A DNA stretch of 64,000 bases from Deltaproteobacteria bacterium. Its GTDB lineage: Bacteria > Myxococcota > Myxococcia > Myxococcales > Anaeromyxobacteraceae. The DNA is taken from assembly GCA_016214955.1 (NCBI GenBank), contig JACRMN010000012.1, forward strand, positions 735,901 to 799,900, read 5' to 3'. Under the pieces are notes generated by a model. That model was not told where the DNA came from. It ran no database searches and was given only the letters and a program-made list of their open reading frames with translations. Shown here piece after piece: positions 51,746 through 62,352 of the stretch. A program made the position numbers and the translations under genes. The stretch's first letter is position 1. Every line of letters starts with the position of its first letter.

Positions 51746-52121
51746 CGCCGGAGCCGTCTGGACGAACGCGTCGGAACTCGTGTCCGCCGAGGAAAGTCCG
51801 GGCACCACAGGGCAGGGTGCCGGTCAACGACCGGCCGGGGCGACCCGCGGGAAAGTGCCACAGAGAACAGACCGCCGAACGGCGCCGAGAGGCGCGCGTG
51901 GCAAGGGTGAAACGGTGCGGTAAGAGCGCACCGCACTCCTGGTGACAGGAGTGGCACGGCAAACCCCACCCGGTGCAAGAGCAAATAGGGAGGCGAGCGG
52001 CCCGCTCCAAGCCTCCGGGTACGGCTCGCTGGAGGCGCGCGGCAACGCGCGTCCGAGAGGAATGTTCGTCGCCGGGGGATTTCCCCCGGAACAGAACCCG
52101 GCTTACAGGGCGGCTCCGGCA
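51746..52121 (+). ncRNA. rnpB: RNase P RNA (M1-type, class A)
   Basis: About 376 bases. It contains the universal blocks GAGGAAAGTCCGGGCACC (near 51788) and ACAGAACCCGGCTTACAG (from 52091). The P1 helix is formed by the 5' GCCGGAGCCG and 3' CGGCTCCGGC (ending 52120). GGCAAACCCCACCCGGTGCAAG, AGCAAATAG and GAGAGGAATG are further conserved pieces. It is the ribozyme that matures tRNA 5' ends. Its last 30 bases double as the left attachment site of the integrated element, and the gene remains intact. Confidence 0.96.
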
Positions 52122-52126
52122 TTTGT
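52097..52126. repeat. attL core: direct repeat in the rnpB 3' end
   Basis: A 30-base sequence beginning CCCGGCTTACAGGGCGG and ending CGGCATTTGT recurs exactly at 61540-61569. This copy completes rnpB. The first mismatch after it is A (52127) versus T (61570). Confidence 0.95.
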
Positions 52127-52139
52127 ACTGATGTGGCAG

Positions 52140-53321
52140 CTACTTGGACCCCTGGGCTGCTGGGGCCCTGCCCAAAGACTGCCCAAGGGGCACCGGAACA
52201 GCGTCGCCGGCGGCCAGGTCGAGGTCGAGGACGGCCATGTCCTTTGGGGTGAAGAGCTCTGGCTTCAGGTGGGCGTACCGCTCGGTCATGACTACCGAGT
52301 AGTGGCCGAGGATCTCCTTCAGCTTCTCGATGCTGCCGCCGGCCATGACCCATTGGCTGGCGAAGCTGTGCCTCGTGGCCTCGTACCAGCCGAGGCCGGG
52401 GCGGGCGAGGCCGAGCGCCTTCAGGACGGGGCGCAGGAAGCTGCCCGGCGTCGCCTTATCGATCTTCTTGCCGTCGCTGCGGAGCGGCGGGATGACGAGC
52501 CCCTCGCCGCCGGACTTCAGCTTCCACCCCGCCAGGATGGGGAGCAGCGGATCGAGGATCGGGACGACCCTGCTGTCCTTGTCCTTGAGCGGCCCTTTCA
52601 CCGACTCGCGGACGTGGATGCGGCGGGCCGCGAGGTCCACGTGGAGCCACTTCAGGGCGAAGATCTCGCCCGTCCGCAGCCCGGCCAGCACGCCGAGCGC
52701 GTAGGCGATGCTGATGGGCAGGGGCAACAGCAGGAAGATGCGTCTGATGTCGGCCAACTTCTCGATGAAGGGCGTGGTGCGGGGGTCGTGCGTCGGCTTC
52801 ATGAGCCGCCTGGTCGAGCGAGGCAGCCCGTGACACGGGTTGGCGGTCGCGACCCCGTCCTCCACCAGGTTGGCGAAGAGCGCCGAGAGCAGCGCCACGA
52901 GGATGCGGATGGTGGCCGGGTTGAGCCCCTCGGACAGTTTGACCTCGACGAAGTGGCGGACGAGCGAGGCGTTCACCTCGTGCGGCTTCTTGGCGCCGAA
53001 CCAGGGGGCGAGGTGCTTCTTCCACCGGCCCCTGTCGGTGTCGGCGGCCCGATGGGTGAGGTCGCGTGCGTCCAGGAACGGGCCGGCGAGCACGTGGAGC
53101 TGCGGCATACCCCTCGGGTCGGGGGGCAGCCCTGCGCGGCCGGTGGCAACGTCGCCGGCGATCCTGGCGAGCACCCGCTGGGCCAGCTCCCGGGTGGCGA
53201 AGCCGCCCTGGTAGCGGCGCTGACCCGCCTCCCGCCACCGGATAGCCCAGGTGCCACCGGGGAGCTCCGGCGCCACGAGCTGCCCGCCGCCGTGAGGGCG
53301 GCGCCTTCTGCGTCTTGCCAT
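52140..53321 (-). CDS. int: Tyrosine recombinase (phage-type integrase)
   Basis: The product is 393 aa. An N-terminal arm-binding region (APELPGGTWAIRWREAGQRRYQGGFATRELAQRVL) is followed by a core-binding SAM-like domain (about 80-180). The catalytic domain is visible: AGLRTGEIFALKW (Arg I), YEATRHSFASQW (box II Arg and His), and LGHYSVVMTERYAHL (His and nucleophilic Tyr). The first box II position is Glu rather than His, a variation seen in this subgroup. Its stop lies 14 bases from the att core. ATG 53321 follows GGAGGAG. It integrates and excises the element. Confidence 0.94.
   Translation of the reverse strand: MARRRRRRPHGGGQLVAPELPGGTWAIRWREAGQRRYQGGFATRELAQRVLARIAGDVATGRAGLPPDPRGMPQLHVLAGPFLDARDLTHRAADTDRGRWKKHLAPWFGAKKPHEVNASLVRHFVEVKLSEGLNPATIRILVALLSALFANLVEDGVATANPCHGLPRSTRRLMKPTHDPRTTPFIEKLADIRRIFLLLPLPISIAYALGVLAGLRTGEIFALKWLHVDLAARRIHVRESVKGPLKDKDSRVVPILDPLLPILAGWKLKSGGEGLVIPPLRSDGKKIDKATPGSFLRPVLKALGLARPGLGWYEATRHSFASQWVMAGGSIEKLKEILGHYSVVMTERYAHLKPELFTPKDMAVLDLDLAAGDAVPVPLGQSLGRAPAAQGSK
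52168..52186. repeat. Arm-site candidate, left end
   Basis: CTGCCCAAAGACTGCCCAA contains CTGCCCAA twice and matches 18 of 19 bases of a copy near the right end (61403-61421), in the same orientation. It lies 42 bases inside the left att core, within the 3' end of the integrase gene. Tandem copies in this place are typical of integrase arm sites. Confidence 0.6.
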
Positions 53322-53396: not shown

Positions 53397-53735
53397 TCAC
53401 CGAGGCCGACGAGCAGCCTCGGCCAGGCGCACCACGTCGGCGGCGTCGGCGTGGCGGAGGACGGCCAGGTCGATCCGGACGGCGCGCCCGACCCGGACGA
53501 CTGGGAGGTCCCCCGCGCGGATGCGGCGGCGCAGGGTGGAGACGCTCACCCCGAGCCGCCTGGCGGCCTCAGGGAGGGTGACCGCTGTCGGCGGGGACGA
53601 CCGGCGGAGCGCGGTGACCTCCTCGTGCAGCGAGCGGACCTCGGCCTCCAGCGAGGCCAGCCGCGACGGCACCTCCAGGAGCGCGGCGAGCGCCCCAGCG
53701 ATGCCGTCGATGAGCTGGCCCGGCCGCTCAGCCAT
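53397..53735 (-). CDS. Excisionase/HTH-like DNA-binding protein
   Basis: The product is 112 aa. Residues ~1-50 form a coiled-coil helix pair (IDGIAGALAALLEVPSRLASLEAEVRSLHEEVTALRR). The rest is a MerR-type helix-turn-helix (VTLPEAARRLGVSVSTLRRRIRAGDLPVVRVGRAVRIDLAVL) as in excisionases and plasmid helix-turn-helix proteins. ATG 53735 overlaps the end of the polymerase gene by eight bases, and the integrase begins 75 bases further on. Likely directionality factor or repressor for excision. Confidence 0.75.
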   Translation of the reverse strand: MAERPGQLIDGIAGALAALLEVPSRLASLEAEVRSLHEEVTALRRSSPPTAVTLPEAARRLGVSVSTLRRRIRAGDLPVVRVGRAVRIDLAVLRHADAADVVRLAEAARRPR

Positions 53736-56004
53736 CCTCGCCCTCGGCGACGGGCATCGTGGCGAGGATCTGCTCCACGGTGGAGATCGAGACGCCGGTC
53801 TCGTGGGCGACCTCTTCGACGGTGCGACCATCGGCGAGCAGCCGCGTGACGATGCGGAACAGGCTCGCCTGCCGCTGGGCGTCGCGGCGCTCGGCCTTGC
53901 GGCGGGCCTTGAGCGCCTGCCGCTCGCCGCTCTCCATCGCCCCGATGGTGTCGTAGGGCACGGTGCCGGTGGACCCGGTGAAGAGGTTCACGTCGCGGTC
54001 GAGCAACCGCCGCTTCGAGTCCCAGTTGAAGGTGGTGCGGTGCGGCTCGGCGACTTCCTCGTTGATGGCGCGGCCGAGACGCACGGCCTCGTGAGCGCCG
54101 AGGCGACGGGTCCGGACCCGCTCCGGGGCCGCGTCGGCCTCGCTGGCAAGGGAGGTGAGGATCGTCCCGGCGAACTCCTCCGTCGTCTCCGACGAGCCGT
54201 GGCGCGCCGTCTTGATGACCGCCCAGGTGCCGTCGGCCGCGATGACCTGCTGCCCCGTCTTGACGTTCTGCGGCCGCCGCAGCAAGGCGTAGCAGCGATT
54301 CCGCACGATGAAGACGCCGTCGGCGGCGTGCTCCAGGCGCATGTCGGAACCGGCGGCGCGGAGCTCGGCGAGGCCGGGGCACATGATGTCCGCGTCCGGC
54401 GCGACCAGCACCGCGTCGGTGCTCACCAGCACCGCCCGGCCGGCGGCGCAGATGTCGCCCATGATCGCCCTGCCGCGCCCGATGATGAGGGCGGCCCACT
54501 CGGGCGCGAAGAGCGAGCCAGCGTCGGTCGTGCGCTGGAGCGCCTGGTGCAGCGCACTCGAACCCGCCACGGCAGCGCCAAGGCCGGCCGAGAAGCCCTG
54601 GAGCTGGGCGGCGCGCTCGAAGTCGAGCAGCGAGGAGCCGCCGAACCGCTCAGCCAGCTTGCCGATGAGCGCGTTCGCGAGGAGCTTGGCCGTCTCGTAG
54701 GGGATGGACCCCTTCGCGGCGGCCGCCTTGTCGGCGAGCAGCTCGCGCATGTAGCGGGCGAGGTCGTGCTGGCGCTCGCTCGCACCCGGCTCGAAGACGT
54801 GGCTGTCGAGGATGCGGATCGTGGCCCCGAACCGCAGGGCCACGCGGAGCTCAGCGACGGTGCAGGTCGAGACGCCGCGCCGGGTGAAGAGCATGCGGTT
54901 CACGCCGTCCCGAACGGTCGGCAGGTTGGGGTAGTCGAAGCCCGGCGGGAACTCGAACTCGATGTGGACGAAGCCCTCGACCCGGTCCACCTCGGCGACG
55001 TCGCGGAGTGGGCGCCACCGCGTGCGGTGGTGCGGGAGCGGCTGGATGATGGCCGCGTGCGGGTAGAGCGAGACGGCGTCGAGCTCCACCAGCGGCTCGA
55101 CGAGAAGGCCGCGCCGGAAGGCGATCATCATGCCGCCCCAGAGCGCCCGCGCCGCCGCGACGCGGACGTCGGGATTGCCGGCGAAGACCCTCTCGTTGCG
55201 CCGCTCGTCGCGGAAGCCCGTCGACGAGCGCCGCTTCTTGACCGTCTTGCGCTGCCTCCAGGGCGCGGGCCCCGTCTTGGCGAAGCGCGTGATGAAGATC
55301 CGGCCGGCAAGCGACGCGAGCGTGCGGTTGCGGAGCGGGTCGACGTCCCAGCGTGAGAGGAGCCGGACCCGGAACTGGTGGAAGGCGAGGGCCACGACCG
55401 CTACCGTGCGTCCCTCGCGGGCGAGCCGGGTGGCCGCCGGCGCGTCCACCATGGTGGAGAGGTGCTGGATGACCTCCTCGACGGACGGGAAGTTGATGAA
55501 GCTGCCGACCTCCTCGGTGTCGTAGTCCAGGAAGAAGGCCGAGAAGTCGATGAGCGACAGCGCGAGGCGGACTTCGCCGACGCCGACCGGGGCGAAGTCG
55601 GCATGGTGGATGTCGGCGCCCACCTGGCGGATGCGGGCCGCGCGGGTGGGCCGGTCGATACGGGCCAGGACGGCCTTACCGTTCATCGCGACGAGGAAGA
55701 CGCGACCCACGCGCCTCTTGGTCGGCACCGCTATCCCGACCTTGAAGAGCAACTGGCTGATGGTGGCGGCGAGGGTGTCGGTGGAGATCGTGGCGCCGGG
55801 CACGGTCACCGTCTCGACCATCGCGGTGCCGTTCACGACGACAGCCATGCGGATGTCGGTGCCGGCGGCGGCGCCATCCACGCGGGCGACGAGCTCGACG
55901 CCGACGACGGGCGCGTTGATCGGCGGCATCGCGGGCGGTCGACGGGGCACCAGGGTCCGGACGAGGAGCAGGGCCATCAGCGCCATCACGGCGGCCTCAT
56001 GCAT
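53728..56004 (-). CDS. Family B DNA polymerase (protein-primed/primer-independent type) with C-terminal HTH
   Basis: The product is about 758 aa. Motif A is LDAVSLYP (Asp ~309), motif B KLLANALIGKLAERF (~440), motif C VSTDAVLVA (Asp ~530), and the post-C block DGVFIVRNRCYALL resembles KxY. ALWGG at ~287-291 fits the YxGG motif that links exonuclease and polymerase lobes in protein-primed PolB. Exonuclease motifs are not convincingly found in the N-terminal 280 residues. A helix-turn-helix lies at ~726-745 (TVEEVAHETGVSISTVEQIL). The start is uncertain (open to 56109; ATG 55926 possible). Expected to copy the element; the motifs fit piPolB or a divergent rolling-PolB. Confidence 0.82.
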   Translation of the reverse strand: MHEAAVMALMALLLVRTLVPRRPPAMPPINAPVVGVELVARVDGAAAGTDIRMAVVVNGTAMVETVTVPGATISTDTLAATISQLLFKVGIAVPTKRRVGRVFLVAMNGKAVLARIDRPTRAARIRQVGADIHHADFAPVGVGEVRLALSLIDFSAFFLDYDTEEVGSFINFPSVEEVIQHLSTMVDAPAATRLAREGRTVAVVALAFHQFRVRLLSRWDVDPLRNRTLASLAGRIFITRFAKTGPAPWRQRKTVKKRRSSTGFRDERRNERVFAGNPDVRVAAARALWGGMMIAFRRGLLVEPLVELDAVSLYPHAAIIQPLPHHRTRWRPLRDVAEVDRVEGFVHIEFEFPPGFDYPNLPTVRDGVNRMLFTRRGVSTCTVAELRVALRFGATIRILDSHVFEPGASERQHDLARYMRELLADKAAAAKGSIPYETAKLLANALIGKLAERFGGSSLLDFERAAQLQGFSAGLGAAVAGSSALHQALQRTTDAGSLFAPEWAALIIGRGRAIMGDICAAGRAVLVSTDAVLVAPDADIMCPGLAELRAAGSDMRLEHAADGVFIVRNRCYALLRRPQNVKTGQQVIAADGTWAVIKTARHGSSETTEEFAGTILTSLASEADAAPERVRTRRLGAHEAVRLGRAINEEVAEPHRTTFNWDSKRRLLDRDVNLFTGSTGTVPYDTIGAMESGERQALKARRKAERRDAQRQASLFRIVTRLLADGRTVEEVAHETGVSISTVEQILATMPVAEGEDG

Positions 56005-56110
56005 GGCGGGCCCCCGAGCCGTTGGTGGCGAAGGCGTCCGAAGCGCCGAGAGACGCATCCCCATACAACACCAGGGGATTCCCCAATCCACCCCCAACGG
56101 AACGCGCATT

Positions 56111-56344: not shown

Positions 56345-57121
56345 CTATGAGGCGTCTTCCGGGTCGTCCAGGGGCTCGTCCAGCAGCTTCTCAACGAAGG
56401 GGACGAGACCCCTTTGGACGTCGCGCTTGAGCTGGTCCCAGGCGCGCTGCCGGGCATGAGTTCCGTCGGCGGTCGTCACCTGGTCCCGCTCGAACTCCTC
56501 GTGATCGAGATGGAGGGCGAGGGCCGCAAGCTCCCCGGAGGTCGGGGCGGGGAGCTTCTTCCGCTTCGCCCAGATCAGCACGCAGGCGCAGAACATCTGG
56601 CGCGGGGATCGCATGGTGGCGAGCCGCTTCTTCGCCCGCGCGTCCACACCGAGCACACGACGCAGTCGTGTCACGAGTTCGAGAAGCGGGCCAAGGTCCG
56701 CCGTGAACTGGAGCATCTCGGCGCCGACGGCGGAGAGCGGCGCGAGCACGTCCGTGGCGCGCGTCCGTGAGCGCCCGTGGGCGAGGCGCACGCCGTGGGG
56801 GTTGACCCGATCATGCAGCCTCTCGGCGTAGGTGATCTCGGTCTCCTGCTCGCGGTCCGAGCTGAAGGCGATCCAGGAATCCTTCGGGACCTTCGCCTCG
56901 GGTGCCTTCAGCAGACCGTGCTTCCCGGTGATGTAGTTGCGGTACGGGTAGAAGTAGCCCACGACCTCGGCGAGGTTGACCCCGAGCTCGCCGGCGCGGA
57001 CGAGCGCGTCGATCTGGGCGTCGCTGCGGTCCTTCTTGAGGAACGACCTGGCGGAGGTCTTGTCCGACAGCCACTTCGAGTCCAGCGACGGCCCCTTGGG
57101 CTGCCTCGGTGCACGAGCCAC
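56345..57121 (-). CDS. Element protein of unknown function, 258 aa
   Basis: GTG 57121 follows GGAGG. It is mostly helical with a Tyr-rich segment (VVGYFYPYRNYITGKHG) near residue 54. Arg/Lys-rich helices (about 160-185, LRRVLGVDARAKKRLATMRSPRQMFCACVLIWAKRKK) and an acidic C-terminus (LDEPLDDPEDAS) follow. I do not recognise the family. It precedes the polymerase in the same direction and may be an accessory replication or DNA-binding protein. Confidence 0.6.
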   Translation of the reverse strand: MARAPRQPKGPSLDSKWLSDKTSARSFLKKDRSDAQIDALVRAGELGVNLAEVVGYFYPYRNYITGKHGLLKAPEAKVPKDSWIAFSSDREQETEITYAERLHDRVNPHGVRLAHGRSRTRATDVLAPLSAVGAEMLQFTADLGPLLELVTRLRRVLGVDARAKKRLATMRSPRQMFCACVLIWAKRKKLPAPTSGELAALALHLDHEEFERDQVTTADGTHARQRAWDQLKRDVQRGLVPFVEKLLDEPLDDPEDAS

Positions 57122-57500: not shown

Positions 57501-58157
57501 TCAGGTCGCGACGGCAACCGCCATCGGCATCGAGGAGCACCGCCGACAACGGCGCCGGCCCGGGATGGTCATGCCGGCCCGGCGGGCCAGCTCCTGTCCG
57601 AGCCGCTTGAGTCGGGAGAACACGGCGGAGATGGACATGCCGGTCGCCGCCGCCACCTCCGCGAGCGTGGCCCCCGAGAACCGGGTCGTGACGAGCTCGC
57701 GGTCCCGCGCCGAGAGGGCCGCGACCCAGTCGCGCAGATCGACGGCCGAGGCGAGCGTGTCGGCGGGATCCGCCGACGTGGCGGCGAGCCACGCCGACTG
57801 GAGGTCGGTGTCGCCCTCGCCGTTGAAGTCGCCGTCGTCGTCGAGCAGGCCGTCGAGCCTGTGGACGACGACCTTGCCGTCGACAAAGTTCGCGAAGTGC
57901 AGCGCGTCCCGTCGCGGTTGACCGCCGCGCGGGAGCTGACGCCGGTGGTCGATGGCCCGGAGCTTCACCGCGTGGACGAGCAGGGCGTTGTCCAGCTTGA
58001 TGCCCAGCTCGGCCTTCCGGGCCGCCATGGCCCAGACCTGGCCGATGGCCTCGGCCATGCGGTCGTCCTGGTCGGTGGGGGTGAGGTGGCGGCGCACGGA
58101 CTCGAACGCGCCGCGCTCTACGAGCGTGGAGAACTGCTGCTGCAACGCCTGCATCAT
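57501..58157 (-). CDS. Sigma-70-like regulator
   Basis: The product is 218 aa. Region 2-like helices occur near 30-75 (DRMAEAIGQVWAMAARKAELGIKLDNALLVHAVKLRAIDHRRQ), resembling the sigma core-binding region. A region 4-like HTH lies at about 145-190 (LSARDRELVTTRFSGATLAEVAAATGMSISAVFSRLKRLGQELARR). The intervening 60 residues are unusual and acidic (LDDDGDFNGEGDTD). ATG 58157 follows GGAGG. A mobile-element sigma factor could switch on the element's genes or act as an anti-host regulator; regions are shorter than in classical ECF factors. Confidence 0.68.
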   Translation of the reverse strand: MMQALQQQFSTLVERGAFESVRRHLTPTDQDDRMAEAIGQVWAMAARKAELGIKLDNALLVHAVKLRAIDHRRQLPRGGQPRRDALHFANFVDGKVVVHRLDGLLDDDGDFNGEGDTDLQSAWLAATSADPADTLASAVDLRDWVAALSARDRELVTTRFSGATLAEVAAATGMSISAVFSRLKRLGQELARRAGMTIPGRRRCRRCSSMPMAVAVAT

Positions 58158-58643: not shown

Positions 58644-59513
58644 CTACGACACGATGCGAAGGCGCACGGCGTAGTCGCGGGCACGGCCCGGCTCGGCGGC
58701 CCCGGCGACCGCCGACAACGCCTTCAACTTCTCGAACGCCGCGAGCAGCCGGGCGAGGCTCTCCTCCAGCTGCTTGCGGTAGCGGCCCAGCCTCGTGAGC
58801 TCGCCGCCGTCCGGGAGCGCGAGGCGGGCGAGGACGTCCCTCCGCATCTGCGCGAGTGCGTCCTCCTGCCTCCCCGCAAGCTCCCCGACCTGCTCCCGCA
58901 GCGCCTCGGCGGCGCGGCGAAGCGCGTGGTAGGGCTCCTGCGGCACGGGGTCGAGCCCGACGTCGGCGAGGAGCTCCAGGGCCCGCTGCATGTCGACGAG
59001 CGGCGCGAGCGGGACCCCGTCGAGGCCGTCCAGGTGCTCCGCCAGCGCCCGCGCCCCGGCGAGCAGGCCAGCGAAGGCGTCCGTGCGCGGGCCGGCGACG
59101 GGACAATCCCGGAGGGCAGCGACGAGGGCGCCGAGCGCGGCGACCGCGTCCCGCGTCCTCGACGCGAGCCGGTGGAGGTCGCTCTGCTCCACGAGCTCCT
59201 CCACGCGCGCCCCGAGGAGCCCGTCCTCGATTCGCTGGAGCCGCTGGAGCCTCCAGACAACGTCGCCGGCGAGCGCGGCGACCTCGGCCTGGGCGTCGTT
59301 CTCCGGCCCGAGCGCCACGAACCAGGACTCGACGTGGGCCTCGTACCGGGCCTGGTCCTCGCCGCCGAGGAGCAGGTGCTTCGCCGCGAGGCCGTGCCGG
59401 ATGCTGTTCAGGGCGGCGCGCGCCCGGCCCTCGGGGCTCGTGGGACCCCTTGATGTCGCGCCGTTGCGCCGCGATGCAGCCTGCTGTGCGGGTGAGCGGG
59501 AGCCCTCAATCAT
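58644..59513 (-). CDS. Helical protein with RRNG...SPEGRARAALNSIRHGL motif
   Basis: The product is about 289 aa. The N-terminus RRNGATSRGPTSPEGRARAALNSIRHGLAAKHLLL resembles a widespread short motif (N-G-x-x-S-x-G-P-x-T/S-x-E-G-K/R) at the start of many bacterial proteins of unknown function. The remainder is a long Ala/Leu/Arg-rich helical domain. ATG 59513 gives the motif a reasonable position; the frame extends to 59609. It may bind DNA or RNA through the basic N-terminus. It is the rightmost minus-strand gene of the element. Confidence 0.62.
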   Translation of the reverse strand: MIEGSRSPAQQAASRRNGATSRGPTSPEGRARAALNSIRHGLAAKHLLLGGEDQARYEAHVESWFVALGPENDAQAEVAALAGDVVWRLQRLQRIEDGLLGARVEELVEQSDLHRLASRTRDAVAALGALVAALRDCPVAGPRTDAFAGLLAGARALAEHLDGLDGVPLAPLVDMQRALELLADVGLDPVPQEPYHALRRAAEALREQVGELAGRQEDALAQMRRDVLARLALPDGGELTRLGRYRKQLEESLARLLAAFEKLKALSAVAGAAEPGRARDYAVRLRIVS

Positions 59514-59732
59514 GGGTTCAGTGTCCCCAGGCGGGTGCCCGGTGGGAAGGACAGGTTGTCCGCCCCGTAGGGTGGGCCCCGGAGGCCCAATCCCCCCCCC
59601 CATCGCCACGGCTCACACTAGCAGCTAGCGAAGGAGAACGACGGGGGCTTCACGGGCGGGTCGGTGGCGCGACTCCGCCCGCGTGTCGCACGGTCCGCCT
59701 CGTGGCGACGACCGACGCTCGAAGGGGGAAAC
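59514..59732. other. Divergent region with a C10 run
   Basis: A 219-base region between divergent genes. It holds a run of ten C (59592-59601), probably the start signals of both genes, and GAAGGGGGAAAC directly before the Kelch gene. No further gene seen. Confidence 0.5.
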
Positions 59733-61208
59733 ATGACAACGGCCAGGACCCGGATCGCGCTCGCGGCGGCCATGATTCTTGCGGCTGGGCTTGGGTGCAG
59801 CAGCAAGTCCAGTGAAACCTACTCGATCGGCGGAACGATCACGGGGCTCACCACGGCGGGCCTCGTGCTCGGATCCACCGGGCAACCCGACCTGACGATT
59901 CCGGCAGGGCAGACAAGCTTCGCGTTCGCGAACAAGGTCGCCAGCGGGACGCGCTACGACGTGATCGTGGTGGCTCAAGCGTCGCAGGGGTCCTGCTCCG
60001 TGACGAGGGGAGCGGGTGTCGTGGCCGGAGCGGACGTCACCAGCGTCGTCGTCACGTGCGACGGGAGTCTCTCAAGTGACTTCAGCGGCCCCCTCAACGT
60101 CGCTCGCGCGTTCTACTTCACCGCGATTGTACTTCCTGGCCGTTCCCCCTCCTGGCCGAACGACGACAAGGTGCTCGTGGCGGGCGGGCATACTGGCAGC
60201 GACGCGGTGACCGCCAGCGCGGAGGTCTTCAACCCCCGTACCGGCAAGTGGACCATGGCCGCCTCGATGACGGTGCCACGCGCCTCGGCGTGCTCCGCGC
60301 TGCTCCCCTCTGGAAAGGTCCTCGTCGCCGGTGGGGCTGGTGCCGTCGGGAACACGGCGGAGGTCTATGACCCCGCCACCGACACCTGGACGCCCACCGA
60401 TCACCCGATGGCCGCCGGGCATGATCTCCCAGGGTGCGTGGTGCTTGCGTCTGGCAAGGTGCTCATCGCCGGTGGCCTGAATCAGGTGAACACGGGGAGC
60501 AACGCCGTGTCCGAGCTCTACGACCCCGAGACGGGCACGTTCACGACGACCGGTCCAATGGTGACGGCTCGATACTGGCACACCGCTACCGAGCTTCCGA
60601 GCGGCAAGGTCCTGGTTACCGGGGGATGCACCGGCGGGTACCCGTGCACGGCAACGACCGCCACGGCGGAGCTCTATGACCCCGTGAGCGGGACGTGGTC
60701 GGCGACCGGTGACCTGCCGGCCGGGGTCTTCGGGCACACCGCCACGAGCGTTCCCGACGGCGTACTCGTGGTCGGAGGCTGCAAGAGCGACGATGCGTGC
60801 GGTCCCACGGGAGCGCACACGGGGAACGCCGAGAAGGCCGCGAGCCTCTACCACCCCACGACCGGGGCATTCGAGGCTGCAGGCGAGATGACCACGGGGC
60901 GCGTGGGCCACGCCGTCGCATTTGTCGACCAGGGCTTCCGGTTCTTCGGCGGAACGTACGGTGCCGAAGGCAGCCGGACCACGGACGTCTACGGGTGGGA
61001 CGGGGCTACCTGGGCGTGGACGGCGGCAGGACCCCTGACGATCGCCGACCACGGGAGCTACCTCCAAGCTGTAAGGGGATACATGTACGAGGGTGAGTGG
61101 GGGCAGAACGGCCCTTACTGGCTCGTGATCGGGGGGCTCGTGTCATCGGCGGGAACGTATTCGCCCACAGCGGCCGTCGAGGGGGCCTTTGAATGCTGCT
61201 CGAACTGA
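59733..61208 (+). CDS. Kelch-repeat lipoprotein
   Basis: The product is 491 aa. A signal peptide ends in lipobox LAAGLGC. Residues ~30-115 form a beta-rich IG-like unit (YSIGGTITGLTTAGLVLG...). Residues ~130-470 are Kelch/galactose-oxidase-like repeats: KVLVAGGHTGS, GKVLVAGGAG, KVLIAGGLNQ, GKVLVTGGCTGG and VLVVGGCKSD, each followed by a motif like AELYDP(V/E)(S/T)GTW. Five to six blades of a beta-propeller are visible. It sits at the right end on the plus strand, unlike the rest, so it looks like cargo. The GC content is a little lower. Confidence 0.85.
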   Translation: MTTARTRIALAAAMILAAGLGCSSKSSETYSIGGTITGLTTAGLVLGSTGQPDLTIPAGQTSFAFANKVASGTRYDVIVVAQASQGSCSVTRGAGVVAGADVTSVVVTCDGSLSSDFSGPLNVARAFYFTAIVLPGRSPSWPNDDKVLVAGGHTGSDAVTASAEVFNPRTGKWTMAASMTVPRASACSALLPSGKVLVAGGAGAVGNTAEVYDPATDTWTPTDHPMAAGHDLPGCVVLASGKVLIAGGLNQVNTGSNAVSELYDPETGTFTTTGPMVTARYWHTATELPSGKVLVTGGCTGGYPCTATTATAELYDPVSGTWSATGDLPAGVFGHTATSVPDGVLVVGGCKSDDACGPTGAHTGNAEKAASLYHPTTGAFEAAGEMTTGRVGHAVAFVDQGFRFFGGTYGAEGSRTTDVYGWDGATWAWTAAGPLTIADHGSYLQAVRGYMYEGEWGQNGPYWLVIGGLVSSAGTYSPTAAVEGAFECCSN

Positions 61209-61539: not shown

Positions 61540-61569
61540 CCCGGCTTACAGGGCGGCTCCGGCATTTGT
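61540..61569. repeat. attR core: second copy of the rnpB 3' end
   Basis: Exact 30-base copy of 52097-52126, begins CCCGGCTTACAGGGCGG. It is a truncated rnpB tail only; the upstream bases do not match rnpB beyond two or three positions. Confidence 0.95.
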
Positions 61570-61637: not shown

Positions 61638-62000
61638 CTACCACCCCACCAGCTCCTCGAAGCCCCCCATGGCGAAGCGCTTCGGGTCGAAGGGCATGGC
61701 GCCCGTCATCGCCGGGTCCTGCATGGCCGGGTCCTTCATCACCGCGGCGTTGACCCGGTCGCGGTGGGCCCGCGACCGGTAGACGATGAAGGCGAAGACC
61801 ATCGTCTCGCCGGGCCGGAGCCGCGCCATCTTCGCGAAGCCCATGCCGAACGGCACCTTCAGGTCCTCGGCGACGCACTCCATGTATGCGAGCGCCCCGT
61901 GCTTCCTCCAGATCTGGGCGCCGAGCTTCGCCATGCGCAGGTAGGCCTTCACCTTGCGCCTCGGCATGGGGATCACGAAACCGTCTACGTAGCGGGCCAT
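61638..62000 (-). CDS. DUF1428 (YbaA-like) protein
   Basis: The product is 120 aa. RYVDGFVIPMPRRKVKAYLRMAKLGAQIWRKHGALAYMECVAEDL is the classical start of the family. Later blocks are GETMVFAFIVYRSRAHRDRVNAAVMKDPAM and MPFDPKRFAMGGFEELV. The fold is a ferredoxin-like dimeric barrel; the function is unknown, with a stress or antibiotic monooxygenase-like shape. ATG 62000 follows AGGAA. It lies just outside the integrated element. Confidence 0.9.
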   Translation of the reverse strand: MARYVDGFVIPMPRRKVKAYLRMAKLGAQIWRKHGALAYMECVAEDLKVPFGMGFAKMARLRPGETMVFAFIVYRSRAHRDRVNAAVMKDPAMQDPAMTGAMPFDPKRFAMGGFEELVGW

Positions 62001-62352
62001 GGTCGTTCCTCGCGAGGCGGGCTCGAGGGGTTCGCGCAGCGTGAGCACGGGATCTGCCCGCCGGCGGGTGGCACCGCAACGGCTCGACCCACCGGGGGGC
62101 GGCGCGGGCAGACGCGGATGGCGGAGGCGGTGTGTCGCCCGGGCCCGGGGATCCAGGCTCGGGGCGACGGAGGACCTTCTCGGGCGCGCCCCGGCGCCCT
62201 CCGTCGCCCCGCTTACCGGGGACTGCGTGCCGGCCAGGGACGCCGGCGGCGGGTAGCTGTCCCTAGGAGATTGCGCCGGCCGCGGCGTGACGCACGTCGA
62301 AACGTGTCGCGTGACCATGTGAAGCAGGTCCCTTGCGGTACCATGCCGCGAA
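62001..62352. other. Divergent intergenic region with inverted repeat
   Basis: A 352-base gap between the DUF1428 gene and the MFS gene, with no gene visible. CACGT-CGAA-ACGTG (62293-62306) is a palindrome 47 bases before the MFS start and could bind a regulator. Several GC-rich inverted repeats lie further left. Confidence 0.4.

Follow-up and report, generated by a model that had tools for sequence, protein, structure and literature searches.

The locus studied here raises the question of how a tyrosine integrase gene came to lie directly behind rnpB, the gene coding for the RNase P RNA, and of whether this RNA gene remains whole. The analysis was performed on a stretch of 64,000 nucleotides, hereafter the window (G000:C26:735901-799900). 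The Rfam model RF00010 gave a match at positions 51750-52121 of the + strand (279.9 bits, E 2.3e-90). With a score of 279.9 bits as compared to a gathering score of 100, and a curated model matched over its full length, the RNA was assigned to class A. No other match was found in the 5.3 Mb genome; being the only copy found, the window rnpB must suffice for growth. The features of the site are as follows.

51747..52121, + strand: rnpB, complete class A RNase P RNA gene, at the putative attL end (RF00010 model positions 1-367; start set by P1 pairing)
51747..51759, + strand: 5′ strand of helix P1 (from the fold)
52108..52120, + strand: 3′ strand of helix P1, within the core (from the fold; lost without the core)
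52097..52126, + strand: putative attL core, 30 nt, rnpB 3′ end (identical repeat)
61540..61569, + strand: putative attR core, 30 nt, displaced rnpB 3′ end (identical repeat)
52140..53321, − strand: gene for a 393-aa tyrosine integrase, facing rnpB convergently, with 13 nt between its stop codon and the core (PF00589, 5.4e-15; phrog_1, 3.4e-44)
61638..62006, − strand: DUF1428 gene, right host flank (PF07237, 2.2e-31; start estimated)

The two copies of the core, at 52097-52126 and 61540-61569, are identical over 30 nucleotides, lie 9.4 kb apart and differ one base further upstream. An exact 17-mer of the core occurs at two places only in the window, both of them core copies, for a chance expectation of 0.11 matches when two mismatches are allowed. 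As expected for integration into a non-coding RNA gene, the end of rnpB is directly repeated at both ends of the segment, the gene is restored at one of them, and a tyrosine integrase gene adjoins one of the two sites. The reading that we favor, with a probability of about 0.9, is that this 9.4-kb segment is an integrative element, in a bacterium of the Anaeromyxobacter family, that would have been inserted at the rnpB 3′ end by its own tyrosine integrase, rnpB being kept whole.

A short repeat by itself cannot show integration, and the case for insertion is known from sequence alone. The 30-nucleotide repeat could have been left behind when the region was duplicated or rearranged locally, with the integrase gene placed there by chance. 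This is extremely improbable, since integrase, core and rnpB are arranged in this way in further genomes and families, as described below, and since the gene flanking the far copy, DUF1428, sits directly behind an unoccupied rnpB in G016, a genome of the same family. In G016, the DUF1428 homologue lies 26-373 nt behind rnpB and is 68% identical to that of the window over 120 aa (E 3e-50), so that this relative displays the empty site with the same right flank. The idea that the same gene follows rnpB in all relatives was rejected. The search covered 17 family loci, including occupied ones and one with only 655 nt of flank, and DUF1428 was found behind rnpB at a single one.

An earlier note had proposed that the left copy keeps a complete RNase P RNA with its P1 helix restored, and the full-length RF00010 match and the predicted fold both bear this out. 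In the minimum free energy structure, nucleotides 51747-51759 pair with 52108-52120 in 13 of 13 consecutive pairs, including two G.U, and the pair probability is at least 0.99 for 10 of them. The helix that closes the 5′ and 3′ ends of class A RNase P RNAs is present over its whole length. The 3′ end predicted by the Rfam model (52121) falls inside the core, and the RNA of the integrated gene is identical, letter for letter, to that of the rebuilt empty site. When the core was cut out, none of the 13 P1 pairs remained in the fold, a crude control because the replacement sequence is arbitrary. Integration might still damage or retune RNase P if the new 3′ flank and the convergent integrase gene lowered RNA yield or altered 3′ end formation, the site being then merely tolerated. 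The element does replace everything behind the core, its integrase gene reads toward rnpB from the opposite strand, and the integrase frame continues through the core in G055, G047 and G015:C48. Against this, the window RNase P RNA including P1 is unchanged, and we regard such an effect as unlikely.

To place the window among its relatives, 95 rnpB loci including that of the window were considered, of which 90 could be parsed and five could not. An integrase homologue was found within 1.9 kb behind the rnpB 3′ end in 11 of the 90 parsed loci, window included. Other integrases at rnpB, which the earlier note had suggested looking for, are indeed present, both here and in the E. coli islands described below. 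In all 11 occupied loci, P1 shows 13-16 consecutive pairs as compared to 6-9 for a control stretch just downstream. The corresponding values for the other 79 parsed loci are 10-18 and 5-10, with one control at 15; 16 of these 79 integrase-free loci have less than 1,400 nt of contig behind rnpB. At the family level, an integrase follows rnpB in eight of the 21 genomes with an rnpB match.

Further copies of the core were found in G047, G055, G022, G012, G015, G007, G057 and G139. The second copies bound elements of 6.0 kb in G055 and 11.7 kb in G047. The core pattern matches 80 of 193 genomes, with two matches for the reversed control pattern. At least three copies are present in G007 (three), G012 (four), G015 (five) and G022 (three). 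G012 carries a window-like integrase (87% identical) and one of another type (49%), each beside a core, and integrases beside a core on stretches lacking rnpB were observed at G012:C121, G015:C43 and G015:C48. Judged from these arrangements, rnpB behaves as a hot spot, where elements stand in tandem in several genomes.

Some of these loci call for comment. G008 has two rnpB genes that are only 83% identical, on C26 (L086, occupied) and C309 (L103). Because the C309 copy is 96% like that of the congener G003, the occupied C26 may be a contaminant contig. Likewise, the contig of G031 that carries the core does not fit the rnpB of that genome and may be a contaminant. The rnpB 3′ flank of G003 (L172) is similar to the left arm found in the G008 element, shows no integrase and is probably a decayed element. 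No second fragment was found in G157, which has two rnpB genes.

The integrase frame runs through the att core in L087 (G055), L088 (G047) and L089 (G015:C48), and goes on into antisense rnpB in G055 and G047. The C-terminus of the protein would differ between the integrated and circular forms, with 526 versus 418 codons in G055 and 498 versus 518 in G047. This may be due to chance, long open frames being common in such GC-rich DNA.

Homologues of the window integrase were sought widely. At E 0.001, 97 of 99 genomes gave matches, mostly to distant tyrosine recombinases. A profile built from nine close integrases matched 14 of 195 genomes of the phylum at E 1e-60. The closest named relative is from an uncultured Anaeromyxobacter, and only one weak match was obtained in the phage collection. 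Residues R216, K246, R317, H340 and Y349, which we take to be catalytic, are invariant among nine aligned relatives. In a tree of 27 chosen integrases, 12 rows with an rnpB core or rnpB-like site and two members of unknown site form one clade, with a fork support of 100/100. Six of the 12 rows lie beside rnpB on the genome, three beside a core without rnpB on the stretch, and three are IMG/VR contigs. The 13 integrases with a tRNA neighbor fall outside this clade, which was found only in the phylum and in IMG/VR contigs.

Two members of the clade, those of G084 and G022 (4.54 Mb), lie away from rnpB, and their sites were looked for and not found. It follows that not all integrases of the clade can be said to target rnpB. 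These two cases are what would be expected if rnpB were a mere landmark, the integrase recognizing another sequence near the core. Nevertheless, in the mapped clade members it is the rnpB 3′ end that is repeated at the two element ends, and IMG/VR contigs carry this end as an rnpB-like site, which makes a mere landmark very improbable. In L129 and L197, the rnpB-like site touches an integrase of the clade, and in L124 and L131 it lies about 2.5 kb from the integrase; the rnpB gene was not found in L124, L129 and L131, nor, by motif search, in L197. Another IMG/VR contig, L125, has a core-like match near a weak integrase match and was neither counted among the rnpB sites nor entered in the tree. 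Using a gammaproteobacterial-type rnpB pattern, 13 IMG/VR stretches were retrieved, none with integrase or rnpB context.

Complete class A RNase P RNA genes were also observed within dense tRNA arrays on IMG/VR contigs L122 (800-1149), L133 (536-887) and L134 (65-392), of 162, 190 and 31 kb, respectively. These contigs probably belong to large phages that encode an RNase P RNA of their own. Part of rnpB was also matched in a 274-kb Microcystis phage record.

Integration at the rnpB 3′ end can be pictured as follows. The integrase of the element would act at the 30-nucleotide core and recombine attP with the rnpB 3′ end, giving entry into the chromosome. Both the P1 3′ strand and the 3′ terminus of the RNA lie within the core, and the displaced 3′ end would mark the far side. 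The copy of rnpB next to the integrase gene would stay complete because attP carries the same letters. Strand exchange may occur within the first 13 nucleotides of the core, so that the element would supply the P1 3′ strand. This position is suggested by one case, the tandem array of G022, where core position 14 is A in the rnpB copy and G in both displaced copies. The same position is G in seven of seven congeners of G022 with a parsed rnpB. This is most simply explained if the A came with the element and the crossover took place in core positions 1-13.

The other genes of the element are listed below.

53397..53831, − strand: HTH protein, excisionase-like (PF12728, 8.1e-10; phrog_66 excisionase/regulator, 4.3e-11)
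53728..56109, − strand: family-B DNA polymerase with a C-terminal HTH (PF03175, 7.2e-10; true start possibly further in)
56345..57121, − strand: ORF, 258 aa, function unknown (no Pfam, PHROG or NCBIfam match)
57501..58157, − strand: ORF with a sigma-70 region 4-like HTH, 218 aa (PF08281, 8.9e-6, at the curated cut-off)
58644..59609, − strand: ORF, 321 aa, function unknown (no PHROG or NCBIfam match)
59733..61208, + strand: kelch-repeat protein with a lipoprotein-like start, cargo (PF13964, 2.5e-30; start codon picked by eye)

The HTH protein would help excision, and the polymerase may copy the excised circle. About 15 nt behind the core (window 52127-52170; same place in L085 and L086), the window, G012 and G008 elements share a TACTTGGACCCC stretch, which is found in altered form in G003 and G031. 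It is perhaps an arm-type integrase site.

The family-B assignment of the polymerase rests on PF03175, matched by four of the five members of its alignment (A1). An AlphaFold model computed from five sequences was poor (mean pLDDT 50), and a search of the PDB matched only short HTH-like or repeat stretches. One short weak match, common to 30 related records, was obtained by tblastn against plasmids. There were no matches to the polymerase in IMG/VR, and none to the window element in the phage collection. Relatives of the polymerase were found near tRNA-Pro in G088, G089 and G092, and in G089 nucleotides 28-67 of tRNA-Pro are repeated 11 kb away. Therefore, polymerase and integration site occur in varying combinations. 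In the G089 relative (L193), the regions corresponding to residues 184-472 and to residues 469-791 are separated by about 1.4 kb, with a long open frame, possibly an intein or an insertion.

The earlier note had also claimed that the site is as conserved as tRNA sites and could give the element a wide host range. This was examined by comparing one rnpB stretch with three tRNA stretches, a small sample, allowing one mismatch in 193 genomes of the phylum. The 22-nucleotide rnpB core was found in 37 genomes, as compared to 157 for a tRNA-Pro 3′ stretch; of two tRNA-Lys stretches, the one from the 5′ part was found in 13 genomes and the one from the anticodon in 8. The claim is only partly supported. 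As many as 43 different 16-mers follow CGGCTTA in 90 rnpB genes; because P1 covaries, the rnpB site is far narrower than the classical tRNA 3′ end. Within the family, rnpB looks like a fair site on these counts.

Relatives of the integrase near tRNA genes give a hint of where the rnpB clade may come from. In ten of them (G003, G007, G010 twice, G012:C74, G015:C117, G017, G108 twice and G158), the integrase gene lies directly 5′ of an intact tRNA gene and reads in the same direction. A second end was found in G003 alone, where nucleotides 1-37 of tRNA-Lys are repeated about 22.9 kb away; for the nine others, we infer a 5′ site from position. When the rnpB 3′ end is read in antisense from the integrase gene (CCGCCCTGTAAGCCGG), 13 of 16 positions agree, in the same orientation, with the anticodon stem-loop of tRNA-Lys (CGGCCTTTTAAGCCGG). 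Among 1,500 random stretches of the window, 1.1% reached 13/16 against three tRNA-Lys genes. This likeness was noticed post hoc, nine tRNA genes having been examined, and is suggestive only. A speculative reading, less likely than not, is that the rnpB integrases arose once from integrases acting on tRNA 5′ halves through such a chance likeness, and that the site was then filled with different tandem elements in some branches. If true, the target would have switched between two essential RNA genes, and the clade would lend itself, as a natural series, to the study of target change in integrases.

A second case of integration at rnpB was found in E. coli. The rnpB 3′ end with its flank was scanned in 5,426 genomes; 5,375 of these gave a match, which covered 80% or more of the query in 4,438. 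One match stopped at the rnpB end, and behind this rnpB lies an island that encodes a tyrosine recombinase and flagellin. The island integrase with its junction was found in 19 of the 5,426 genomes, in 18 over at least 80%, and the layout was seen in the two genomes of the 19 that were inspected. These islands presumably correspond to the flk locus type. Their rnpB differs from that of K-12 at two positions, one of which turns P1 pair 4-370 from G.U into G-C, and 10 of 10 P1 pairs are kept. The view that an essential RNA gene is a safe site only if its 3′ end is rebuilt exactly is thus too strict. The island integrase (486 aa) has no BLASTP similarity to that of the window (best E 4.5). In K-12 (L280), the rnpB 3′ end, GCTTATCGGTCAGTTT, is present in every one of the repeats behind rnpB, which could be remnants of former att sites.

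Genes for tRNA and tmRNA are textbook landing sites, as they are conserved and can be regenerated. The rnpB gene shares these advantages and is usually present in a single copy. Like tRNA/tmRNA islands and prophages of the Islander/TIGER type, the window element has a tyrosine integrase beside an att site, a gene restored at one end and a displaced 3′ fragment at the other; its target is the RNase P RNA gene, whereas these islands target tRNA or tmRNA genes. In the parts of the TIGER/Islander announcement consulted, only tRNA/tmRNA, protein-coding and intergenic sites are counted (PMC12424338). The titles, abstract openings and passages returned by a literature search do not name rnpB as an integration site; passages that mention it do so as a promoter or tree marker only. 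We do not claim that it is absent from print.

The window element also resembles pipolins, which are integrated and combine a family-B polymerase, a tyrosine recombinase, an excisionase-like gene and terminal repeats. The polymerase of pipolins (piPolB) is primer-independent; that of the window is likened to it at the level of the family-B assignment (PF03175). In E. coli, according to the excerpts consulted, the integration site of the described pipolins is a tRNA-Leu gene (PMC7385651), and not rnpB as in the window.

The elements at tRNA 5′ ends share with the window element the integrase family (38-51% identity for seven of the ten) and an intact gene on the integrase side. Their integrase gene is codirectional with the tRNA and 5′ to it, whereas in the rnpB clade it converges with the 3′ end of the gene. 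Finally, the E. coli flagellin islands have, as in the window, a tyrosine recombinase directly behind rnpB and a conserved P1 helix. They differ by flagellin cargo and by an unrelated integrase reading away from rnpB, that of the window being convergent with it. Two unrelated integrase lineages, one of Myxococcota type and one of the E. coli flagellin islands, are thus found at rnpB, which suggests adding this gene to the targets considered by island-finding tools.
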